Assembly: GCA_017415945.1 (NCBI GenBank)
Contig: JAFQDR010000006.1
Location: forward strand, 1-8,441
Length of the DNA: 8,441 bases
Origin: Oscillospiraceae bacterium
Lineage (GTDB): Bacteria > Bacillota_A > Clostridia > Oscillospirales > Oscillospiraceae
Direction: 5' to 3'
Positions within the stretch are counted from its first letter, which is position 1; each line of letters starts with the position of its first letter. Of this stretch, positions 1 to 8,441 are shown in pieces. Below the pieces are notes generated by a model, which was given only the letters and a program-made list of their open reading frames with translations, had not been told where the DNA came from and did no database searches. The position numbers and the translations under genes were made by a program.

Positions 1-175
1 CAGCCTGTGGCCCTGCATCCTCTGCCACGGTGCCATCAACGGCCTCAGCGTGTTCGCGCCGAACCCCGGTTTGGGAGGGGGACTTGCAAGCGCGGCCTTC
101 CTGTGCGCGGTGAGCATTGGCTACGGGCTGTATCTGGCAAAGAAGTTCCCCCTTGAGGAATTGGAGATATCGTAA
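1..175 (+). CDS. C-terminal fragment of a probable CPBP (Rce1-like) intramembrane metalloprotease
   Basis: The reading frame is open from position 2 to a TAA at 173-175, giving the last 57 residues of a protein whose start lies outside the window. The visible part has a short segment with SLWP followed by HGAINGLS, then a glycine-rich turn, a hydrophobic stretch that looks like a final membrane helix (FLCAVSIGYGLYLA) and a charged cytoplasmic tail ending in EELEIS. In CPBP/CAAX-type intramembrane proteases the last conserved motif is a His followed a few residues later by Asn/Asp, usually preceded by a S-[LI]-W-P-like sequence, and this matches. Such proteins cleave within membranes and often act in bacteriocin immunity or protein maturation, but the substrate cannot be told here. 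The catalytic Glu-containing motif is outside the window, so activity cannot be judged. A terminator follows the stop directly. Confidence 0.62.
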   Translation, partial: SLWPCILCHGAINGLSVFAPNPGLGGGLASAAFLCAVSIGYGLYLAKKFPLEELEIS

Positions 176-180
176 GCATC

Positions 181-215
181 GGCTCCCATATAAGTGGGAG
201 CCGAAAATTTCTTTT
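181..215 (+). terminator. Rho-independent terminator of the CPBP-like gene
   Basis: A perfect 8-bp stem, GGCTCCCA (181-188) with TGGGAGCC (195-202), has a 6-nt loop and is followed by a T-rich tract (208-215, TTTCTTTT). It starts 5 nt after the stop codon of the upstream gene, so that transcript probably ends here and the following promoter starts a new unit. Confidence 0.85.
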
Positions 216-224
216 GAATACCTA

Positions 225-253
225 TTGACAAAGTCGGTAGTTTCGTGTATACT
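225..253 (+). promoter_or_regulatory. Strong sigma-A-type promoter driving the structured RNA
   Basis: A perfect -35 box TTGACA (225-230) is separated by exactly 17 bp from a TATACT -10 box (248-253, five of six consensus bases). The predicted start is about 259-261. There is no coding region in the first 280 nt downstream; the first product is the foldable RNA that ends in a terminator at 435-468. Confidence 0.85.
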
Positions 254-260
254 GCAATCA

Positions 261-276
261 GTTAGATGAGACTAAC
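261..276 (+). promoter_or_regulatory. Inverted repeat at the transcription start, candidate operator
   Basis: GTTAG (261-265) and CTAAC (272-276) form an inverted repeat with a 6-bp spacer, located exactly where the transcript from the 225-253 promoter should begin. That placement fits a repressor site. The TTAG/CTAA arms resemble half sites of DtxR/IdeR-type metal-dependent repressors, but the arms are only 5 bp, so the regulator is a guess. It could also be a short 5' stem-loop of the RNA. Confidence 0.4.
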
Positions 277-434
277 ATAAAGAGAAGCACTCCTGAAATT
301 TAACAAACCATACAAACATCTCTCTTTCAAAATGCTGTGGGACTGCCATAACCCACGGCGGAACGGAACACCCCGTGTAAGGGGGAGCAAAGCCATGAGC
401 TCCGTTCCGGATACCGACCTTCACACATCATCTG

Positions 435-468
435 AAAACCACCACGAATTTCCCGCGTGGTGGTTTTT
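435..468 (+). terminator. Strong intrinsic terminator ending the structured RNA, upstream of the surface-protein gene
   Basis: A perfect 12-bp stem pairs AAAACCACCACG (435-446) with CGTGGTGGTTTT (456-467) across a 9-nt loop, and the 3' arm runs into TTTTT followed by GATTTAT. It lies 72 nt before the ATG of the large surface-protein gene, so transcripts from the 225-253 promoter must either stop here or read through in a regulated way. Confidence 0.9.
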
Positions 469-476
469 GATTTATC

Positions 477-505
477 TTGCATGGTCAAATGGGATGGGGT
501 ACAAT
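477..505 (+). promoter_or_regulatory. Candidate second promoter for the surface-protein gene
   Basis: TTGCAT (477-482) and TACAAT (500-505) are 17 bp apart. The -10 box matches five of six consensus bases but the -35 box only three of six. A start near 512 would give a short 5' UTR of about 28 nt with the ribosome binding site at 526-531. It lies just after the terminator, so the protein gene could be transcribed independently of the RNA. Confidence 0.4.
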
Positions 506-525
506 GAAAACAGAATTTGTGCATC

Positions 526-531
526 GGGAGG
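526..531 (+). promoter_or_regulatory. Ribosome binding site that fixes the start of the surface-protein gene
   Basis: GGGAGG lies 8 nt before the ATG at 540. In-frame upstream ATGs at 489-491 and 504-506 lack such a site, the latter overlaps the candidate -10 box, and both would add residues ahead of a textbook signal peptide. ATG 540 is therefore chosen. Confidence 0.85.
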
Positions 532-539
532 AATACTCT

Positions 540-3500
540 ATGAAAAAAAGATGCTTGACCATACTCTTTGTGATGCTTGTGCTGATCAGCACACTGACGA
601 TTCCTGCCTTTGCAGGGGAGCATCTGTTGGGAACTTGTGGGGAATACCTCACCTGGACCTATGATGTGGATGAAGGTGTGTTGACCATTGCGGGCACAGG
701 AGAGATGTATGACTATTCCGAAACTGCTCCCCCCTGGTCGGAATACAGCGGAGAGATCACCGAGTTGGTGATGGAGCATACCGTTGCATCCATCAGCGAG
801 AATGCTTTTATGGGCTGTGAAAATCTGTATACCATCCGCTATGACGGTACCCTTGCCCAGTGGGTGGAAACCAAGATCGGATTGGGCAACTGGGAGCTTG
901 GCAAGGCCGCGCCCATTTGCACAGACTGGGAGCCCGATGAATATGCCCACTATGGCTACTTCGGCGATATGGGCGACCGTGTCCTGTGGCTGCTGGATGG
1001 CAAGGGAACCTTGTATGTTTACGGTACGGGCTATGCAGATGACCTGTGCGAAAATCCTCCTGCATGGGAAGACTGGAAGAATGAGATCGGCTGGGTCTAT
1101 GTGAAGGACGGTATTATGGGTCTGGACGATTTGGCCTTTTCCGAATGCTATAATTTGGAAACCGTGGACTTGGCTGACTCCGTGGAATATTTGGGCATAA
1201 GCTGCTTCTCCGATTGTCCCAATCTGAGGGAAGTGAAGCTGGCTTCCAAGACCGACTGGCGAGATATTCCCGAGTTTCTGTTTTCCGGGTGCACCTCTTT
1301 GGTGAAGGTCAATATTCCCGAAGGAACCCCTACAATCGGCACCAATGCCTTTTATCAGTGCAGCGCTCTGGAGGAAATTACAATTCCCGAGTCTGTGAAG
1401 GTCATTTATGCAAATGCCTTTATGGGATGCACCTCTCTGAAGGAAGTAAATTTGCCCGGGGCTGTGAATCGTTTGTGGACTTCCAGCCGATGGGATGATT
1501 ACGGCAAGTCTCCCTTTGCGGGCTGCAGCGCCCTTGAGGAATTCACCGTCAGTGAAAACAATCGGGATTTCAGCGCCGACGAACAGGGTGCTCTGTATAA
1601 TAAGGACAAGACCCATCTGATACAAGTTCCCGCAACCAAGTCGGGAAGCTTCATCGTTCCCGATACCGTTACATATATTTGGGCGGGTGCGTTTCAGGAC
1701 TGTGTGGGTCTGACGGAAATCATTCTTCCTGAGGGCCTGGAACGTATGCACAACAAGGTCTTCCAGAATTGTACGGGTCTCAAGAAAATCACGATTCCCG
1801 ACAGCGTAACGGAGATCGGCTACGATATTTTCTGGAAGTGCAGCAATCTGGAATCCGTGAAGATGTCCAAGCAGGTCACCATTCTGGACGGTACCTTTAA
1901 TGAATGCGCTTCTCTGAAGGAATTTGATATTTCCGATGCCGTTACCGAGCTGGGCTACCGCACCTTTTACGGCTGCAAAGCGCTGGAGCGGGTGTCTGTT
2001 CCCAAGTCTATCACCGCCATCGGCAAGGAATCCTTTACACAGTGCTCTGCTTTGACTGAGGTGCTGTACGACGGATATGCCGGTGAGTGGGATCTGATCG
2101 ACATCAAAGAGGGCAACGAGTGTCTGAACGATGAAATTGTGAAATGCAAGGTCTGCAAAGACCATGAAGTGATTACGGTTCCCGCTGTGGAGCCTACCTG
2201 TATCGAAGAAGGCTACACGGAAAGCAGCAGCTGTGCTGTTTGCAGCGAAGTATTCACCACACGGGAAACCATTCCCGCAAAGGGTCATGATGTGACCGAC
2301 GGCGTCTGCACGGTCTGCGGAGAAGCTGTGGACTGGTATTTCACCCCCGACACAGGCACCTTGACCATCTGCTTTGCAGGACCCATGGATGACTATGACG
2401 GGGAGCTGGACGGCCCCTGGTGGGATCTGCGTGAACAGGTTCAGCATGTGGTGGTGCAGGAGGGCGTGACCACCATCGGCAATTCCGCCTTCCCCCAATT
2501 CAATCAGCTGAAGACTGTGACCCTGCCCCAAGGCATTACCTCCATCGGCAGACTGGCCTTCCAGCTGTGCGAGGCACTGGAAAGCATCAATATTCCCGAT
2601 ACCGTCACTTCCATCGGGGAAGCGGCCTTTAACGGCACCTCCAAGCTGGCGAAGATCTGCATCCCCAAGAGCGTAGAGGCCATTGGCCCCGCTGCCTTTG
2701 AGGGGAGCTTGTACAGAACGGCCTATGAGGTGGATCCCGAAAATCCCTATTTCAGCAGCGACCTTGTGGGGAATCTGTATAACAAGGAAAAGACAAAGCT
2801 CATCATGGCACCCAACTATATGAAGGCTGTTGTGATTCCCGCAAGCGTTACGGAAATCGGTGACGGGGTGTTTGCTTTGAGCACCCACATGAACGCGATT
2901 TATTTCTGCGGAACCGAGGAACAGTGGAATGCCATGAAGATCGGTCTGCGCAACGAGCATATGCCCGCAACGGTATATGTGGGAGTCAGCAAGGAAAGAG
3001 ACTGCGCTGCGGGGAACCACATTGCAGTGACTAAGGAAGGCAAAGCACCTACCTGTACCGAGGAAGGCTCCTCGGGCTATATGATCTGCGTAATTTGCAG
3101 CGAGATCACAAAGGCACCGACTGTTCTGGAAAAGCTGCCCCATGATTATGTGAACGGCATCTGCACCATGTGCGGTGGCACGGAGCCCGAAAAGCCTGTG
3201 GAAAGTCCCTTCACCGACGTGCAGACCACGGACTGGTTCTTTGCTCCCGTGCTGTGGGCGAAGGAAACGGGCGTCACCGGCGGCAAGACCGCAACTACCT
3301 TTGCTCCCGATGAAAGCTGCACCAGAGCCCAAGTGGTTACCTTCCTGTGGGCGGCAAACGGCAAGCCCGCACCCAAGAGTGCAAGCAATCCCTTTACCGA
3401 CGTGCCCAACGATGCTTGGTATCTGCAGCCTGTGCTGTGGGCGGTGGAAAACGGCGTGACCGGCGGCACCTCCCCCACCACCTTCGGCCCCGATAATTAC

Positions 3501-4715
3501 TGTACCCGCGCACAGGTGGTCACCTTCCTGTATGCTGCGGCGGGCAAGCCCGAAATGAGTGCAAGCAGCACCTTTGATGACGTTGCGGACACCGACTGGT
3601 TCGCTAAGCCCGTTATCTGGGCAAAGGAAAACAATGTGACCGGCGGCATCAGCCCCACACAGTTTGGCCCCAATAACGTATGCACCAGAGCACAGGTTGT
3701 TACCTTCCTGTACAGCAGCAAGGACAACATGCCCGATGTACCCGATACCCCCGATGTACCCGATACCCCCGATGTACCCGACGTACCCGAAAAGCCTGTT
3801 GGCGACCATGAAGCATACGGTGCCAAGCGCCATGAGCTGTGGCAGTCCGCTGCCAATACCCCTCTCGATCAGCTGCCTGTCTATAACGACACTGCGACCT
3901 ATGAGGGCATCCGGCAGATTCTGGACACCTGTGACCCCGACGGCGGTCTGATGTTCCGCTATGACCCGGAGGGTGCCTTCGGTTGGGTCTTTCCTGCCAA
4001 TGGTATGACAGGGGATACGGATACCGCTATCCATGAAACCTACCACGGCTTCAGCTATGATTTCGGCTGGGGCACCACCACCTATTACCTTGAAAATGGG
4101 TATTTCCTGGTTGTGCCCGAGACTAAGACATATCTCTCCGAGAAAATGACCGTTATGATCCCCGAGGAAAATCGAACCTTCCGCTTTGAGGATTATGTGG
4201 GTACCGGTTCCTACCTTAGCTCCAATAAAAGCGGCATTTACGGATTGATGGATGAGTTCAATGCCTACCAGATGGGCATGAACTACGGGGTCAATATGTT
4301 TGACTATTACTGCGCACAGGAATCCTCCCTCGAATCCTGGTGTCAGTATATCAACGGCTGCGAGAACAATCGTCAGGCCTATGCCGAATTCCGCTACTAC
4401 ATCCTGACCTATCTGCTGTATGCCAAGGTGTATGAACCCGAGGTCTATGAAGGACTCATGGGCAACGAAAAGCTTCGTTACGCATTTACCGTTGTAGAAT
4501 CCAACTTTGCGGAAGACATTGCACGCTACGAAGCGGATCTGCTCCGTTTGGACAGCGGAGAGCTCCCCGGCACCTCGAAAATCAAGATCACCGAGGATAC
4601 CTTCTGGTTTGGGAATCAAGGCACGGGTCGATTCACCGCAGAGTATAAAAAGCTTATGGGGGCTATGAGCGCTCCCGCATATGTGGAAATGATGGAAACC
4701 TTTACTCTCAAATAA
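540..4715 (+). CDS. Secreted BspA-type LRR / SLH surface protein with C-terminal HExxH zincin-like domain
   Basis: The product has 1391 residues. Residues 1-25 are a signal peptide (Lys-Lys-Arg, hydrophobic core, AFA cleavage site before Gly26). Three cap-like modules with a GTLTI.GTG...PW pattern occur near 46-66, 156-176 and 606-627. About 18 BspA/LRR_5 repeats (pattern AF..C..L..I.IP..V..IG) fill roughly 88-510 and 635-790. Two Cys/His modules lie at 536-593 and 822-878. Three SLH domains cover 889-1060, each with a CTRAQVVTFL motif, and should bind secondary cell-wall polymer. A Pro-Asp-Val/Thr linker (1066-1086) leads to a C-terminal domain (about 1089-1391) with HETYH at 1165-1169 and a possible third ligand Glu1239. 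BspA-type LRRs in other bacteria bind host or matrix proteins, so the likely role is a wall-bound adhesin, perhaps with protease activity. The architecture is seen directly; catalysis is inference. The gene appears monocistronic, followed at once by a terminator. Confidence 0.9.
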   Translation: MKKRCLTILFVMLVLISTLTIPAFAGEHLLGTCGEYLTWTYDVDEGVLTIAGTGEMYDYSETAPPWSEYSGEITELVMEHTVASISENAFMGCENLYTIRYDGTLAQWVETKIGLGNWELGKAAPICTDWEPDEYAHYGYFGDMGDRVLWLLDGKGTLYVYGTGYADDLCENPPAWEDWKNEIGWVYVKDGIMGLDDLAFSECYNLETVDLADSVEYLGISCFSDCPNLREVKLASKTDWRDIPEFLFSGCTSLVKVNIPEGTPTIGTNAFYQCSALEEITIPESVKVIYANAFMGCTSLKEVNLPGAVNRLWTSSRWDDYGKSPFAGCSALEEFTVSENNRDFSADEQGALYNKDKTHLIQVPATKSGSFIVPDTVTYIWAGAFQDCVGLTEIILPEGLERMHNKVFQNCTGLKKITIPDSVTEIGYDIFWKCSNLESVKMSKQVTILDGTFNECASLKEFDISDAVTELGYRTFYGCKALERVSVPKSITAIGKESFTQCSALTEVLYDGYAGEWDLIDIKEGNECLNDEIVKCKVCKDHEVITVPAVEPTCIEEGYTESSSCAVCSEVFTTRETIPAKGHDVTDGVCTVCGEAVDWYFTPDTGTLTICFAGPMDDYDGELDGPWWDLREQVQHVVVQEGVTTIGNSAFPQFNQLKTVTLPQGITSIGRLAFQLCEALESINIPDTVTSIGEAAFNGTSKLAKICIPKSVEAIGPAAFEGSLYRTAYEVDPENPYFSSDLVGNLYNKEKTKLIMAPNYMKAVVIPASVTEIGDGVFALSTHMNAIYFCGTEEQWNAMKIGLRNEHMPATVYVGVSKERDCAAGNHIAVTKEGKAPTCTEEGSSGYMICVICSEITKAPTVLEKLPHDYVNGICTMCGGTEPEKPVESPFTDVQTTDWFFAPVLWAKETGVTGGKTATTFAPDESCTRAQVVTFLWAANGKPAPKSASNPFTDVPNDAWYLQPVLWAVENGVTGGTSPTTFGPDNYCTRAQVVTFLYAAAGKPEMSASSTFDDVADTDWFAKPVIWAKENNVTGGISPTQFGPNNVCTRAQVVTFLYSSKDNMPDVPDTPDVPDTPDVPDVPEKPVGDHEAYGAKRHELWQSAANTPLDQLPVYNDTATYEGIRQILDTCDPDGGLMFRYDPEGAFGWVFPANGMTGDTDTAIHETYHGFSYDFGWGTTTYYLENGYFLVVPETKTYLSEKMTVMIPEENRTFRFEDYVGTGSYLSSNKSGIYGLMDEFNAYQMGMNYGVNMFDYYCAQESSLESWCQYINGCENNRQAYAEFRYYILTYLLYAKVYEPEVYEGLMGNEKLRYAFTVVESNFAEDIARYEADLLRLDSGELPGTSKIKITEDTFWFGNQGTGRFTAEYKKLMGAMSAPAYVEMMETFTLK
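2145..2318 (+). repeat. Cys/His module, copy 1 (within the surface protein)
   Basis: Residues 536-593 carry C536, C539, H542, C554, C565, C568, H583, C590 and C593. From H542 on, the spacing is identical to copy 2 at 3003-3173. The paired CxxC motifs suggest a small metal-binding or disulfide-stabilised unit between the two LRR blocks. Similar Cys-rich spacers occur in other clostridial LRR surface proteins, as far as I know without a defined function. Confidence 0.6.
3003..3173 (+). repeat. Cys/His module, copy 2 (within the surface protein)
   Basis: Residues 822-878 carry C822, H827, C839, C850, C853, H868, C875 and C878. The steps 827-839-850-853-868-875-878 equal 542-554-565-568-583-590-593 in copy 1. 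This copy separates the second LRR block from the SLH domains. Confidence 0.6.
3204..3719 (+). repeat. Three tandem SLH domains (within the surface protein)
   Basis: Three related units begin at residues 889, 950 and about 1011. Each has an [ST/N]-x-F-[TD]-D-V opening, a W[FY]..PV.WA.E..VTGG core and a CTRAQVVTFL ending. SLH triplets form the trident that holds proteins to pyruvylated wall polymer. The usual TRAE signature is TRAQ here in all three, a form I associate with Oscillospirales-like proteins. Confidence 0.9.
3733..3790 (+). repeat. 18-bp tandem repeat encoding a Pro-Asp-Val/Thr linker
   Basis: Two perfect 18-bp units (3735-3752 and 3753-3770), beginning GATGTACCC and encoding DVPDTP, are followed by a diverged partial unit. 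The result is a rigid, acidic, proline-rich spacer between the SLH domains and the C-terminal domain. Its length may vary between strains by slippage without breaking the frame. Confidence 0.8.
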
Positions 4716-4719
4716 CACA

Positions 4720-4760
4720 AAACCCACCGAGCTTTGCTGCTCGGTGGGTTTCAATTTTAT
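4720..4760. terminator. Bidirectional terminator between convergent genes
   Basis: AACCCACCGAGC (4721-4732) pairs perfectly with GCTCGGTGGGTT (4739-4750) around a 6-nt loop; A4720-T4751 extends the stem. The plus strand continues with TCAATTTTAT and the minus strand with TTGTGTTATT. It lies between the stop of the surface-protein gene (4715) and the stop of the minus-strand DUF1294 gene (4757), and so can serve both. Confidence 0.9.
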
Positions 4761-5038
4761 ACATTCCAAAACAGATGCATCACGGTGCCGACCAGTGCCA
4801 ATTGGGCAATGAGGATGGCGGGGAAGCCGTATTTGAAGCTGTTGTGTCGGGTCTTGTGGCGGAAGATCCGCATGCCCAAGATGCCTCCCACACTGCCGCC
4901 CAGTATGGCGGTGAGAAACAGGGTCTTTTCGGGGATGCGCCACAGTCCTCGCTTGGCCTTATACTTGTCAATGCCCATGAGAGCGAACAGCAGGGTGTTG
5001 ATTGCTGTAAGGTAAATGCAAAATGCCTGATAAATCAT
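4757..5038 (-). CDS. DUF1294 family small membrane protein
   Basis: The 93-residue protein has three predicted membrane segments (about 5-21, 38-57 and 70-90). It carries the motifs I recognise for DUF1294: GIDKYKAKRG (22-31), WRIPE (33-37), LGGSVGG (46-52) and FRHKT (59-63), with a conserved-type Phe at 68. The length is normal for the family and it looks intact. Its biochemical function is not known. The ATG overlaps the stop of the upstream YgiQ-family gene as ATGA (5035-5038), and no strong ribosome binding site precedes it, so translation is probably coupled to that gene. The transcript ends at the shared terminator at 4720-4760. Confidence 0.9.
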   Translation of the reverse strand: MIYQAFCIYLTAINTLLFALMGIDKYKAKRGLWRIPEKTLFLTAILGGSVGGILGMRIFRHKTRHNSFKYGFPAILIAQLALVGTVMHLFWNV

Positions 5039-7011
5039 CGTCTGCCTCTGCCGCCCTTGCGGTCATCCTTCTGCATTCTTCCGCCGCTGCGGCCTGTTTT
5101 GGCTGCGGGTTTGGCGTTCTTGTCCCTGCGGTCGTTCTTTGCGGGCTTGCCGTTCTTTGCTGCGGGCTTTTTGTCATCGGCTTTCTTTCCCTGATATCCT
5201 CCCCTATGGTTGGGGTCGGGGCGCACCAGACATTCCTTGCCGTAGCCGATGAGGTCTGTGCGGCCCGCGGCATGCAGAGCCTGAATGACCAGTCTCCGCT
5301 TTTCGGGCCGTGCCCACTGGAGCAGAGCCCGCTGCATGGCCTTTTCGTGGGGATCCTTGGCTACATATACGGGCTTATAGGTCTGGGGATCGATGCCCGT
5401 GTAATACATACAAGTAGAAATTGTGCCGGGGGTTGGGTAGAAGTCCTGCACCTGCTCGGGGACACGCCCCTTGGCGTGGAGGTACTCTGCCAGTTCCACC
5501 GCATCGTTCAGGGTGGAGCCCGGGTGGCTGCTCATGAGGTAGGGAACGATGTACTGTTCTTTGTCATAGCGGTCGTTCAAGCGGCGGTAGCGGTCCATGA
5601 ACTTTTCGTAGACCTCGATGTGGGGCTTGCCCATGTAGTCCAGTACGGAGTTGACGCAGTGCTCGGGTGCCACCTTCAGCTGTCCCGATACGTGGTAGCG
5701 CACCAGCTCGGAGAAGAATTCCCCGTTCTTGTCGCAGAGCATATAGTCATAGCGGATGCCGCTGCGGACAAAGACCTTCTTCACCCCGGGGATGGCGCGG
5801 AGCTTCCGCAGCAGGGTCAGGTAGTCGGATTCGTCCGCATCCAGATTTTTGCAGGGGGTGGGTGCCAGACACTTGCGGTTGGGGCACAGCCCACGCTCCA
5901 TCTGCTCCTTGCAGGAGGGGTGACGGAAGTTTGCGGTAGGGCCGCCCACGTCGGCAACATAGCCCTTCCACAGGGGGTGCTTGGTCATGGCGGTGACTTC
6001 ACGGATGACGGACTCGTGGCTGCGGGAGGTGATCATTCTGCCCTGATGGAAGGCCAGAGCGCAGAAGTTGCAGTAGCCGATGCAGCCGCGGTTGTGGATG
6101 ACAGAGAAGCGTACCTCCTCGATGGCGGGGACACCGCCCATTTCGTCGTACATGGGGTGTACCTCACGAGTGTAAGGCAGGTCCGCTACCTTGTCCAGCT
6201 CTTGGGTGTTCAAGGGCATCTGGGGCGGGTTCACCAGCAGCCAGCGGTTGTCGTGCTTTTGCAGCAGCGCCTTGCCGCGGATGGGGTCGTGCTCGTCATA
6301 TTCCTTGCGGGTGGCAACGGCGTATGCCATTTTGTCCGCAACTACCTCGGCGTAGGAGGGGATCTCGATGGAGTCATATTTGCACACAGAAGGGTCGCTG
6401 ACCAGCACGGCGGTGCCTTTGATGTCCGTCAGAGAGCTGACGGGCTCTTTCTTTTTCAGGCGGTGAGCGATCTCACGGGTGGCCTTTTCCCCCATGCCGT
6501 ATACCAGAATGTCTGCGGTGGAGTCATGGAGGATGCTGCGGCGCACCTTGTCGTCCCAGTAGTCGTAATGGGCGTAGCGGCGGAGAGAGGCTTCCAGACC
6601 GCCGATGATAATGGGGGTGTCGGGGAAGGCCTCACGGGCGCGGTTGGCATAGACGATGGTGGCGCGGTCGGGGCGCAGGCCCATCTGCTTGCCGGGGGAG
6701 TAGAAGTCCTCGCTGCGGCGCTTCTTGGCGGCGGTGTAGTGGGCTACCATGGAGTCAAGATTGCCGCTTGAGATCATGACACCCAGCTTGGGCTTGCCCA
6801 TGGCAAGGAAATCCTCACAGCTGTGCCAATCGGGCTGCGCCAGAATGGCAACGCGGAAGCCCTCGTCCTCCAGCACACGGGCGATGACCGTGGGGCCGAA
6901 AGAGGGGTGGTCAACGTATGCGTCACCTGTGACGATCAAGTAGTCATACCACCACCAGCCGCGGTCCTGCATATCTTGTTTGCTTACGGGAAGAAAAGTT
7001 TCGGGATACAT
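5035..7011 (-). CDS. ygiQ: YgiQ family (UPF0313) radical SAM protein
   Basis: The 658-residue protein matches the YgiQ family throughout. An N-terminal radical-SAM-associated domain (about 5-295) contains YDYLIVTGDAYVDHPSFG and the IIIGGLEASLRRYAHYDYW segment. The radical SAM core begins near 300 with C310-x3-C314-x2-C317 (CIGYCNFC), which should bind the [4Fe-4S] cluster that cleaves S-adenosylmethionine. A DUF3362-like region lies at about 515-600. Residues 604-658 form a low-complexity Lys/Arg/Gly tail. A second Cys group (C367, C376, C381, C387) could bind another metal centre. The reaction and substrate of this family are not established. The ATG at 7009-7011 has GGAGGT (7016-7021) 4 nt upstream. 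The gene heads a two-gene unit with the overlapping DUF1294 gene; the 82-nt gap to the phosphatase/acetyltransferase gene leaves co-transcription with that gene open. Confidence 0.93.
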   Translation of the reverse strand: MYPETFLPVSKQDMQDRGWWWYDYLIVTGDAYVDHPSFGPTVIARVLEDEGFRVAILAQPDWHSCEDFLAMGKPKLGVMISSGNLDSMVAHYTAAKKRRSEDFYSPGKQMGLRPDRATIVYANRAREAFPDTPIIIGGLEASLRRYAHYDYWDDKVRRSILHDSTADILVYGMGEKATREIAHRLKKKEPVSSLTDIKGTAVLVSDPSVCKYDSIEIPSYAEVVADKMAYAVATRKEYDEHDPIRGKALLQKHDNRWLLVNPPQMPLNTQELDKVADLPYTREVHPMYDEMGGVPAIEEVRFSVIHNRGCIGYCNFCALAFHQGRMITSRSHESVIREVTAMTKHPLWKGYVADVGGPTANFRHPSCKEQMERGLCPNRKCLAPTPCKNLDADESDYLTLLRKLRAIPGVKKVFVRSGIRYDYMLCDKNGEFFSELVRYHVSGQLKVAPEHCVNSVLDYMGKPHIEVYEKFMDRYRRLNDRYDKEQYIVPYLMSSHPGSTLNDAVELAEYLHAKGRVPEQVQDFYPTPGTISTCMYYTGIDPQTYKPVYVAKDPHEKAMQRALLQWARPEKRRLVIQALHAAGRTDLIGYGKECLVRPDPNHRGGYQGKKADDKKPAAKNGKPAKNDRRDKNAKPAAKTGRSGGRMQKDDRKGGRGRR

Positions 7012-7015
7012 ATAG

Positions 7016-7021
7016 ACCTCC
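7016..7021 (-). promoter_or_regulatory. Ribosome binding site of the YgiQ-family gene
   Basis: The minus strand reads GGAGGT with only 4 nt before ATG 7011, a somewhat short spacing. It supports this ATG, which also begins the recognisable family N-terminus. Confidence 0.75.
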
Positions 7022-7044
7022 GTTGTCGGTAGAGAATAGATAAG

Positions 7045-7100
7045 AGTGAATAGTGAATAGTTGAGGTCAAATCCAATTTGCCAATTGGATTTGTTATTTT
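7045..7100. repeat. Intergenic element: AGTGAAT direct repeats plus perfect hairpin
   Basis: Two tandem AGTGAAT heptamers (7045-7058) are followed by an 11-bp perfect inverted repeat, CAAATCCAATT (7068-7078) and AATTGGATTTG (7083-7093), with a 4-nt loop. On the plus strand the hairpin is followed by TTATTTT, like an intrinsic terminator, but no plus-strand gene precedes it. On the minus strand it begins directly after the stop codon of the phosphatase/acetyltransferase gene and lacks a U tract, so there it may act as an mRNA 3'-end stabiliser or weak terminator. It could also be part of a dispersed miniature repeat. Confidence 0.55.
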
Positions 7101-8245
7101 AAAACTCCGCGGTCGATGGGGCGTTCCATCAGGTGCAGGGGTGCGCCGATGCCGATGGCTTCATCAAACTTGCGGAAGCCCAGATGCTCGTAAAAGTCCC
7201 GTGCATGGGGGTTGTCCTCGGAAACGCTGAGGCACACCTTGCCGCGGCCCAGCTTTGCGTACAGGGTGGTGGCATAGCCCAGCAGCTGCACCCCGTAGCG
7301 TTTGCCGCGAAATTCGGGCAGCACATACAAAAATCCGATCCAGCCCTTGCCTGCATCCGCATCACGGTGGGTGTCCAGTGCGGCAATGCCTACTACGGTG
7401 TCACCGTCCAGCCCCACGGCGATGGCCTCGGGTTGGGCTCTCTGCCAGCGGCGTGCGCTTTCCAAATACAAATGGGGCACAAAGCCCTCCGTGTCTCCGT
7501 GGGCGATGCGCCATGCATCGGCGTAGCAGTCTGTGAAAAACCTTGCCTCGGCGGTCAGATCCATGGGGCGGAACCGTAGGTTGCCCTCATCCTTGCCTGT
7601 CTGCCACCACTTCTGGCGGGCCTTGTTCACGCAGTCATCGGGGAGGTGGCTGCTGTCGCAGGCGTAGTCAATGGAGATGACCCCGTTTTCCACGGTCAGC
7701 AGGCTTACGGCGGTGTTGTCTCCGTGCTTTACAGAGTGGATGCCCTTACCCTCCACGTTCCACACCTTGCACATCAATGCGCGGATGGCGGTGCCGTGGG
7801 AGACTATGGCGATGGTCTGTCCCTCGTGACGGGAGGCGATGTGGCAAACGGCACCGTACAGCCGTTCCCGCAGCTCGTGCCACAGCTCATTGTCCCCCAC
7901 GTTCCACAAATCGGGGTTGGAGGAGAAATAGCTGTACTGCTCGGGCTCGTAATAGGAGGCGTCGCCCCAGCTGATACCCTCCCAGCGGCCCATATATACT
8001 TCACGCAGCCGCTTGTCGGTCTGCAGGGGCAGGTCGTGGTACTTGGTGATTGCCCCTGCGGTGAGCATGGTGCGGGTCAGGTCGCTGGAGTACAAAGCGT
8101 CCAAGTGCACATCCTTCATGCGCTCCGCCAGTGCGGCGATCTGCTTGTGACCTCTTGCGGTGATGCCACCGTCCCAATGGCCTTGGATGCGGCGATAATA
8201 GTTGCCTTCCGCTTCCGCGTGGCGAATGAGATATACCTCGGTCAT
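7094..8245 (-). CDS. Histidine phosphatase / GNAT acetyltransferase fusion protein
   Basis: The 383-residue protein has two domains. Residues 1 to about 197 are a histidine phosphatase (phosphoglycerate-mutase-like) domain: LIRHAEAEGN with catalytic His9 and Arg8, Arg58 in SSDLTRT, proton-donor candidate Glu82 in LREVYMGRWEG, and His150 in VSHG. After a linker of about 25 residues, 224-376 form a GNAT N-acetyltransferase domain, with acetyl-CoA-binding motif A at 302-322 (containing RGKRYG) and motif B at about 339-357 (SEDNPHARDFYEHLGF). All key motifs of both domains look intact. Phosphatases of this family act on sugar phosphates, cofactor precursors or phosphoproteins, and GNATs acetylate amines, so the substrate pair cannot be named. 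ATG 8245 is supported by the GGGAGG site and an extended -10 promoter. The stop at 7094-7096 abuts an inverted repeat. Confidence 0.9.
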   Translation of the reverse strand: MTEVYLIRHAEAEGNYYRRIQGHWDGGITARGHKQIAALAERMKDVHLDALYSSDLTRTMLTAGAITKYHDLPLQTDKRLREVYMGRWEGISWGDASYYEPEQYSYFSSNPDLWNVGDNELWHELRERLYGAVCHIASRHEGQTIAIVSHGTAIRALMCKVWNVEGKGIHSVKHGDNTAVSLLTVENGVISIDYACDSSHLPDDCVNKARQKWWQTGKDEGNLRFRPMDLTAEARFFTDCYADAWRIAHGDTEGFVPHLYLESARRWQRAQPEAIAVGLDGDTVVGIAALDTHRDADAGKGWIGFLYVLPEFRGKRYGVQLLGYATTLYAKLGRGKVCLSVSEDNPHARDFYEHLGFRKFDEAIGIGAPLHLMERPIDRGVLK

Positions 8246-8253
8246 AGACGGTG

Positions 8254-8259
8254 CCTCCC
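8254..8259 (-). promoter_or_regulatory. Ribosome binding site of the phosphatase/GNAT fusion gene
   Basis: GGGAGG on the minus strand is 8 nt from ATG 8245, an ideal spacing that confirms this start. Confidence 0.85.
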
Positions 8260-8276
8260 GTTTGTCATAATATAGC

Positions 8277-8305
8277 AGTATAACATATAATCCGCTCGGT
8301 TACAA
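8277..8305 (-). promoter_or_regulatory. Extended -10 promoter of the phosphatase/GNAT fusion gene
   Basis: On the minus strand, TTGTAA (8300-8305) is 17 bp from TATACT (8277-8282), and a TGT directly before the -10 box gives the TGn extension. The predicted start is near 8270, for a leader of about 25 nt. Confidence 0.7.
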
Positions 8306-8370
8306 TTACAACAGTTGGCAGAGAAGGCAATGTCATTCAGATAGTTCAATCTGCAAATAGAGTGGTTGTA

Positions 8371-8441
8371 GGGCGGGGGCTTGCTCCCGCCGCTTGTAGT
8401 TAACATTGGCAGATATATCGGTGCGGAACGGCGGGAGCAAG
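8371..8441. repeat. GC-rich palindrome with an inverted second copy: REP-like element, cut by the window edge
   Basis: GGCGGGGG (8372-8379) pairs with CTCCCGCC (8384-8391) around CTTG, with one G-T pair. The 13-mer CTTGCTCCCGCCG (8380-8392) recurs as its exact reverse complement at 8429-8441, so a second hairpin in opposite orientation probably continues past the window. Paired, oppositely oriented GC hairpins in non-coding DNA are typical of REP/BIME-type repeats. The remaining upstream stretch (8306-8370) shows nothing else I can support. Confidence 0.6.

Follow-up and report, generated by a model that had tools for sequence, protein, structure and literature searches.

The C-terminal 303 residues of an exported surface protein, encoded in an 8,441-nucleotide stretch from an Oscillospiraceae bacterium (assembly GCA_017415945.1, contig JAFQDR010000006.1, positions 1 to 8,441; this whole stretch is the window), probably constitute an exported zinc-dependent endopeptidase domain that represents a new Glu-zincin-like family. 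The case is based on the domain itself, the conservation of its residues, the export-like N-termini of most of its relatives and a confident predicted fold. The initial annotation, made from the DNA letters, had regarded these roughly 300 residues as an undescribed family, and they indeed match no Pfam and no NCBIfam family at E≤1. The elements on which the argument turns are the following.

540 to 4715, plus strand: the whole gene, an intact open reading frame of 1391 codons plus stop for an exported leucine-rich repeat (LRR)/SLH surface protein with a C-terminal metallopeptidase-like domain
3804 to 4712, plus strand: metallopeptidase-like domain, residues 1089-1391 (303 residues)
4032 to 4046, plus strand: HETYH, residues 1165-1169 (CAT GAA ACC TAC CAC), within a helix predicted at domain residues 72-84
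4182 to 4196, plus strand: Arg1215 to Tyr1219, conserved, possible transition-state stabilisers
4254 to 4256, plus strand: Glu1239 (GAG), the third zinc ligand as proposed, within YGLMDEFNAY; its predicted helix spans domain residues 144-164
4386 to 4388, plus strand: Glu1283 in AEFRYYILTY, the second strongly conserved motif

HETYH lies where the annotation had read it, at residues 1165-1169 (DNA 4032-4046) of the intact frame 540-4715, and is the sole HExxH within the 1391 residues. The distant Glu1239 in GLMDEFNAY is also present (4254-4256); its distance from the second His, given as 69 residues, is 70 positions, with 69 residues between. A homologue alignment had been proposed as the check on HExxH, and conservation is nearly complete: among 94 distinct rows, His1165 and His1169 are each His in 90/90 covering rows, Glu1166 is Glu in 89/90 (the exception, P0012, has Asp), and Glu1239 and Tyr1219 are unchanged in 91/91. 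Tyr1243 (89/91), Asn1309 and Tyr1291 (87/91 each), Arg1215 (84/91) and Glu1283 (82/91) are conserved too, and the ligands hold in rows down to ~20% identity. This set was reduced from 112 sequences by removing identical or contained ones; near-identical rows stay, P0012 is included, and the rows other than H-E-H-E are L052 and P0002, which lack the motif region, one piece of L053, two overlapping end frames of L010, and P0012.

The motif is short, and a chance HExxH in an unrelated domain would be favoured by that shortness (0.005 expected from composition per 303-residue domain; 74 of 20,000 shuffled domain sequences hold one), but it is near-invariant over several phyla at ~20-35% identity; because of this conservation across the family we exclude a chance origin, to which we attach a negligible probability. 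In a 60-row alignment, His1165, Glu1166, His1169, Tyr1219, Gly1235, Glu1239, Phe1240 and Tyr1243 are invariant; the alignment omits P0002 (a fragment), P0012 (HDVFH), L047 (cut by a contig end), L052 (frame begins past the motif region), L053 (broken frame), L006, L009, L019 and L001/P0008, the same protein as L039. Over these 60 rows the spacing from second His to Glu ranges over 65-100 with unvarying ligands, as expected if function fixes both ends of this segment and not its middle.

P0012, a cluster of 9 sequences with HDVFH, is the sole Glu-to-Asp change; in the HExxH of an M60-like mucinase, this change is reported to reduce activity dramatically (PMC3267712). Together with the LRR and SLH parts, which suggest an adhesin, P0012 speaks for a non-catalytic binding or structural domain, a pseudopeptidase whose HExxH would hold a structural metal or none; we consider this improbable, given that the Glu of HExxH is kept in 89/90 rows though dispensable for a structural metal.

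The AlphaFold2 model of the domain is confident (predicted local distance difference test score (pLDDT) 96.7; predicted template modelling score (pTM) 0.94), and puts HExxH in helix 72-84 and Glu1239 in helix 144-164 of the domain. The annotation had looked to a predicted structure for a zincin fold; Foldseek searches of PDB and BFVD with the predicted fold gave no match at E≤0.001. Since no solved structure is a clear counterpart of the predicted fold, we infer rather than observe a zincin fold and proteolysis. Covariation (87 rows, effective number of sequences 69), used to look for contact between the HExxH helix and the Glu helix, gave no usable signal; the predicted hairpin was absent from the top 70 pairs. 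We also entertain, as a distinctly less favoured idea, that the Glu-zincin-type active site has been built on a largely helical scaffold other than the classical zincin fold, through independent origin or extreme remodelling; such a scaffold would serve surface proteins that Clostridia and spirochaetes anchor in wall or membrane.

The lack of a significant fold match to known peptidases also agrees with a real metal site (HxxxH plus Glu) that catalyses something other than proteolysis, such as the hydrolysis of a glycan, an ester or a wall cross-link, or alpha-ketoglutarate-dependent oxidative iron chemistry of the HExxH type. HExxH iron enzymes with a zincin-reminiscent fold exist, and the conserved Glu1283, Asn1309 and Tyr1291 lie beyond a minimal zincin site. 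Such a reaction nevertheless seems unlikely to us, as most members look exported or lipoprotein-like (80/88 by the rule described below), where alpha-ketoglutarate is unexpected, and the distant Glu and the context of the HExxH helix fit Glu-zincins. A ferritin-like di-iron site was dismissed by reasoning only: there is just one conserved ExxH.

We therefore return to the endopeptidase reading and to the Glu-zincins, MEROPS subclan MA(E) (thermolysin type). This subclan is defined by the HExxH motif (PMC3890501), and every Pfam domain whose members mostly carry HExxH is described as predictable as zincin-like (PMC3650047). By its residues the family is Glu-zincin-like: it has a conserved HExxH and, C-terminal to it, a conserved Glu in a predicted helix. 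It shares with Glu-zincins the placing of HExxH in a helix, the conserved Glu in a later helix and similar residues around HExxH (MtfA/M90, M78 and Peptidase_MA_2 were compared); it differs in having no sequence family match, a spacing of 65-100, no significant fold match, and an HExxH helix that is predicted to be preceded by helices and followed by strands. The gluzincin interpretation of the annotation holds in so far as the domain is conserved, HxxxH and the distant Glu fall in predicted helices, and the domain ends an exported LRR/SLH protein.

A profile-profile comparison, likewise proposed at the outset, placed the HExxH helix in register with zincin families, but weakly and over only 15-33 columns: using hhalign with an 87-row family alignment, the motif was in register with Peptidase_M78 (probability 33, 33 columns), MtfA/M90 (22, 22 columns) and Peptidase_MA_2 (7, 15 columns), compared with 45 for MtfA-MA_2, 35 for MA_2-M78 and 11 for MtfA-M78 among known families, and 0.1-0.4 for the column-reversed family as control. 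In this sequence comparison, which covers the helix only, the active-site helix looks about as zincin-like as known zincin families are to each other. Over the whole domain, neither Peptidase_M90 PF06167 (MtfA) nor Peptidase_M78 PF06114 gave a Pfam profile match. The yardstick alignments are small (13, 13 and 14 rows, with no frame from one Peptidase_MA_2 locus), and each row is the longest frame with an HExxH at its locus, trimmed to the surroundings of the motif in two of the three alignments; their size, and frames taken without a Pfam re-check, weaken all hhalign figures. The Glu1239 column is in part selected for, as one of the two patterns of the locus scan, YGL[LM][ND]EF[NM], holds the distant Glu; the other is EF[RK]Y[YF]IL[THC]Y, and HExxH is in neither.

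Among better-known proteins, the M60-like/PF13402 surface mucinases resemble the window protein in being exported and modular with HExxH plus Glu (PMC3267712), but their reported spacing, HEXXHX(8,28)E (PMC3267712), differs from the 70 positions in the window and the 65-100 in 60 rows, and the PF13402 profile has no match to the window domain. The Zmp1/PPEP-type protease of Clostridioides difficile is alike by description, as a secreted clostridial HExxH zinc protease (PMC3841139); the comparison is by description, and its family has no Pfam match to the window domain. PF20573 (DUF6782), a putative metallopeptidase, weakly matches the divergent member L095 (E=0.0021, 17.8 bits, cut-off 27), the match running only up to its HELTH and stopping at HExxH; it has none in the window domain.

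The family is unnamed and patchy across whole genomes. A length-limited search of 5.8 billion proteins returned 7 relatives of the domain, and 14 with a profile; the scan of genome contigs confirmed 53 loci from 85 stretches. Judged by record title, these are mostly Lachnospiraceae and other Clostridia, with seven spirochaetes (Spirochaetota), Bacteroidota (Roseivirga, Saprospiraceae and two others), KSB1, Armatimonadetes and one gammaproteobacterium; one relative, from Carboxydocella, is on a plasmid. Counting whole-genome matches at E≤0.001, where centre genomes match by construction, we found at least 6/299 genomes at family level and at least 4/392 at order level (three over tail columns alone) around G001, the genome of L002; at least 3/295 at order level (two matching just in tail columns that lie outside the domain) around G002, that of L031; at least 1/247 at phylum level around G003, that of L037; and at least 13/198 at phylum level (one an untrusted 60-residue frame) and 5/26 at order level around G005, that of the spirochaete L046. 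Single spirochaete genomes have up to four matching places.

In the 60 rows scanned against Pfam and NCBIfam at E≤1, no HExxH peptidase family stood among the best 25 of 44 and the best 25 of 33 families, and DUF7413 matched 3 members (best E 0.0029); ten divergent members scanned separately matched no metallopeptidase family. A viral or phage origin was rejected, with no relative in viral contigs or a phage collection. A PHROGs scan of 8 members gave no match for the window protein, weak rows for P0005 (E 0.036) and P0006 (E 0.024), and a strong one for L039 (6.8e-12) at 321-368, outside the core domain. Among the titles and abstract beginnings listed by searches of the open-licence PMC literature, none described the family, a weak negative.

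Some members have unusual architectures. L054 5212-6792 has two stretches that match the family profile, the first without the HExxH part and the second with HESCH, which suggests a tandem duplication whose first copy has degenerated. L040 (KSB1), which has no Pfam match at all, and L093 (a spirochaete order) seem by eye to share an extra C-terminal region of ~200 residues. In the spirochaete copy L053/L083/L085 the frame is broken past the Glu helix, and it was kept as two pieces.

Most members look exported. A simple permissive rule, used without a null control and with P0001-P0003 left out, found a signal-like or lipobox-like N-terminus in 80/88 distinct proteins; among the 8 that fail it, L001 has a TTG start and a clear hydrophobic stretch, and L082 resembles it by eye. 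The modules combined with the domain are SLH in 8/60 members, copper-amine-oxidase-N in 1/60, and also fn3 (L009, L069), a choline-binding repeat (L066) and CBM96 (L095). Judged by sequence, these export-like N-termini and this mix of modules are the make-up of a surface enzyme. The start of the stop-to-stop frame L009 1346-3280 resembles BspA-type LRR by eye, so that LRR plus domain may occur more than once.

In the window, the parts that surround the domain are as follows.

225 to 253, plus strand: sigma-70-type promoter-like site upstream of the gene, TTGACA-17-TATACT, 11/12 consensus bases
540 to 614, plus strand: signal peptide MKKRCLTILFVMLVLISTLTIPAFA, from the sequence, cleavage site by eye
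1128 to 1475, plus strand: BspA-type leucine-rich repeats, residues 197-312, the best of five Pfam LRR_5 stretches
3207 to 3722, plus strand: three SLH domains, cell-wall anchor, approximate limits by eye
3723 to 3803, plus strand: Pro-Asp-Val/Thr linker, from the sequence
4720 to 4751, plus strand: terminator-like hairpin 3' of the gene, from a consensus scan

Pfam matches the protein with PF13306 (LRR_5; E=4.3e-94, five stretches) and PF00395 (SLH; E=3.9e-31, 3 stretches, the best being residues 951-993). In the mechanism that we infer by analogy with Glu-zincins, His1165, His1169 and Glu1239 would hold one zinc ion, with the geometry of such sites, and Glu1166 would be the general base that activates the water attacking the peptide bond; Tyr1219, perhaps with Arg1215, may stabilise the transition state. 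The three SLH domains would anchor the protein to the cell wall and the Pro-Asp linker would keep the domain away from it; the LRR region may serve to bind a target or surface partner. The enzyme would then trim proteins on the cell surface or in its immediate surroundings, an action suggested by the wall anchor and rigid linker.

By eye, GGGAGG precedes the ATG of gene 540-4715. The promoter-like site is a consensus match only, the window having 7 such sites against 5.2 in shuffles. Between this site and the gene, the leader 257-480 folds with a minimum free energy of -63.1, compared with -48.6 for shuffles (z -3.3), into two hairpins, after which comes a terminator-like hairpin that has a T-run (~434-468, judged from the fold and by inspection). 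It has no Rfam match (the best row, E 0.38, was regarded as chance), and a 20-base piece of it is present in 0/145 loci; the leader could be an undescribed attenuator or riboswitch controlling the surface protein gene. An antisense open frame of 1538 codons (327-4943, minus strand) spans the whole gene, and because the Pfam matches sit on the plus strand we take it as a probable shadow of codon usage.

Three downstream genes, for a DUF1294 protein, a radical SAM protein and a histidine phosphatase/GNAT fusion, run on the opposite strand, so no operon partner is visible; family members aside, every neighbour cluster is limited to 6/53 loci or fewer. The radical SAM protein has library matches to Radical_SAM_N plus DUF3362 and is, we presume, of the YgiQ type. 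Five related Lachnospiraceae loci (L012, L017, L018, L019 and L020) have a radical SAM (YgiQ-type)-like gene a few kb from the domain gene; it was likened by eye to the window gene 5035-7011, and this may be chance.

A family with no match in the Pfam and NCBIfam copies searched gains a sharp prediction of its metal ligands, general base and third ligand, one that covers dozens of proteins, most of them exported, for which no function has been described. Should the enzyme prove real, Clostridia and spirochaetes would gain a surface protease; should its scaffold truly not be a zincin fold, a well-known active site would have been built in a new way.
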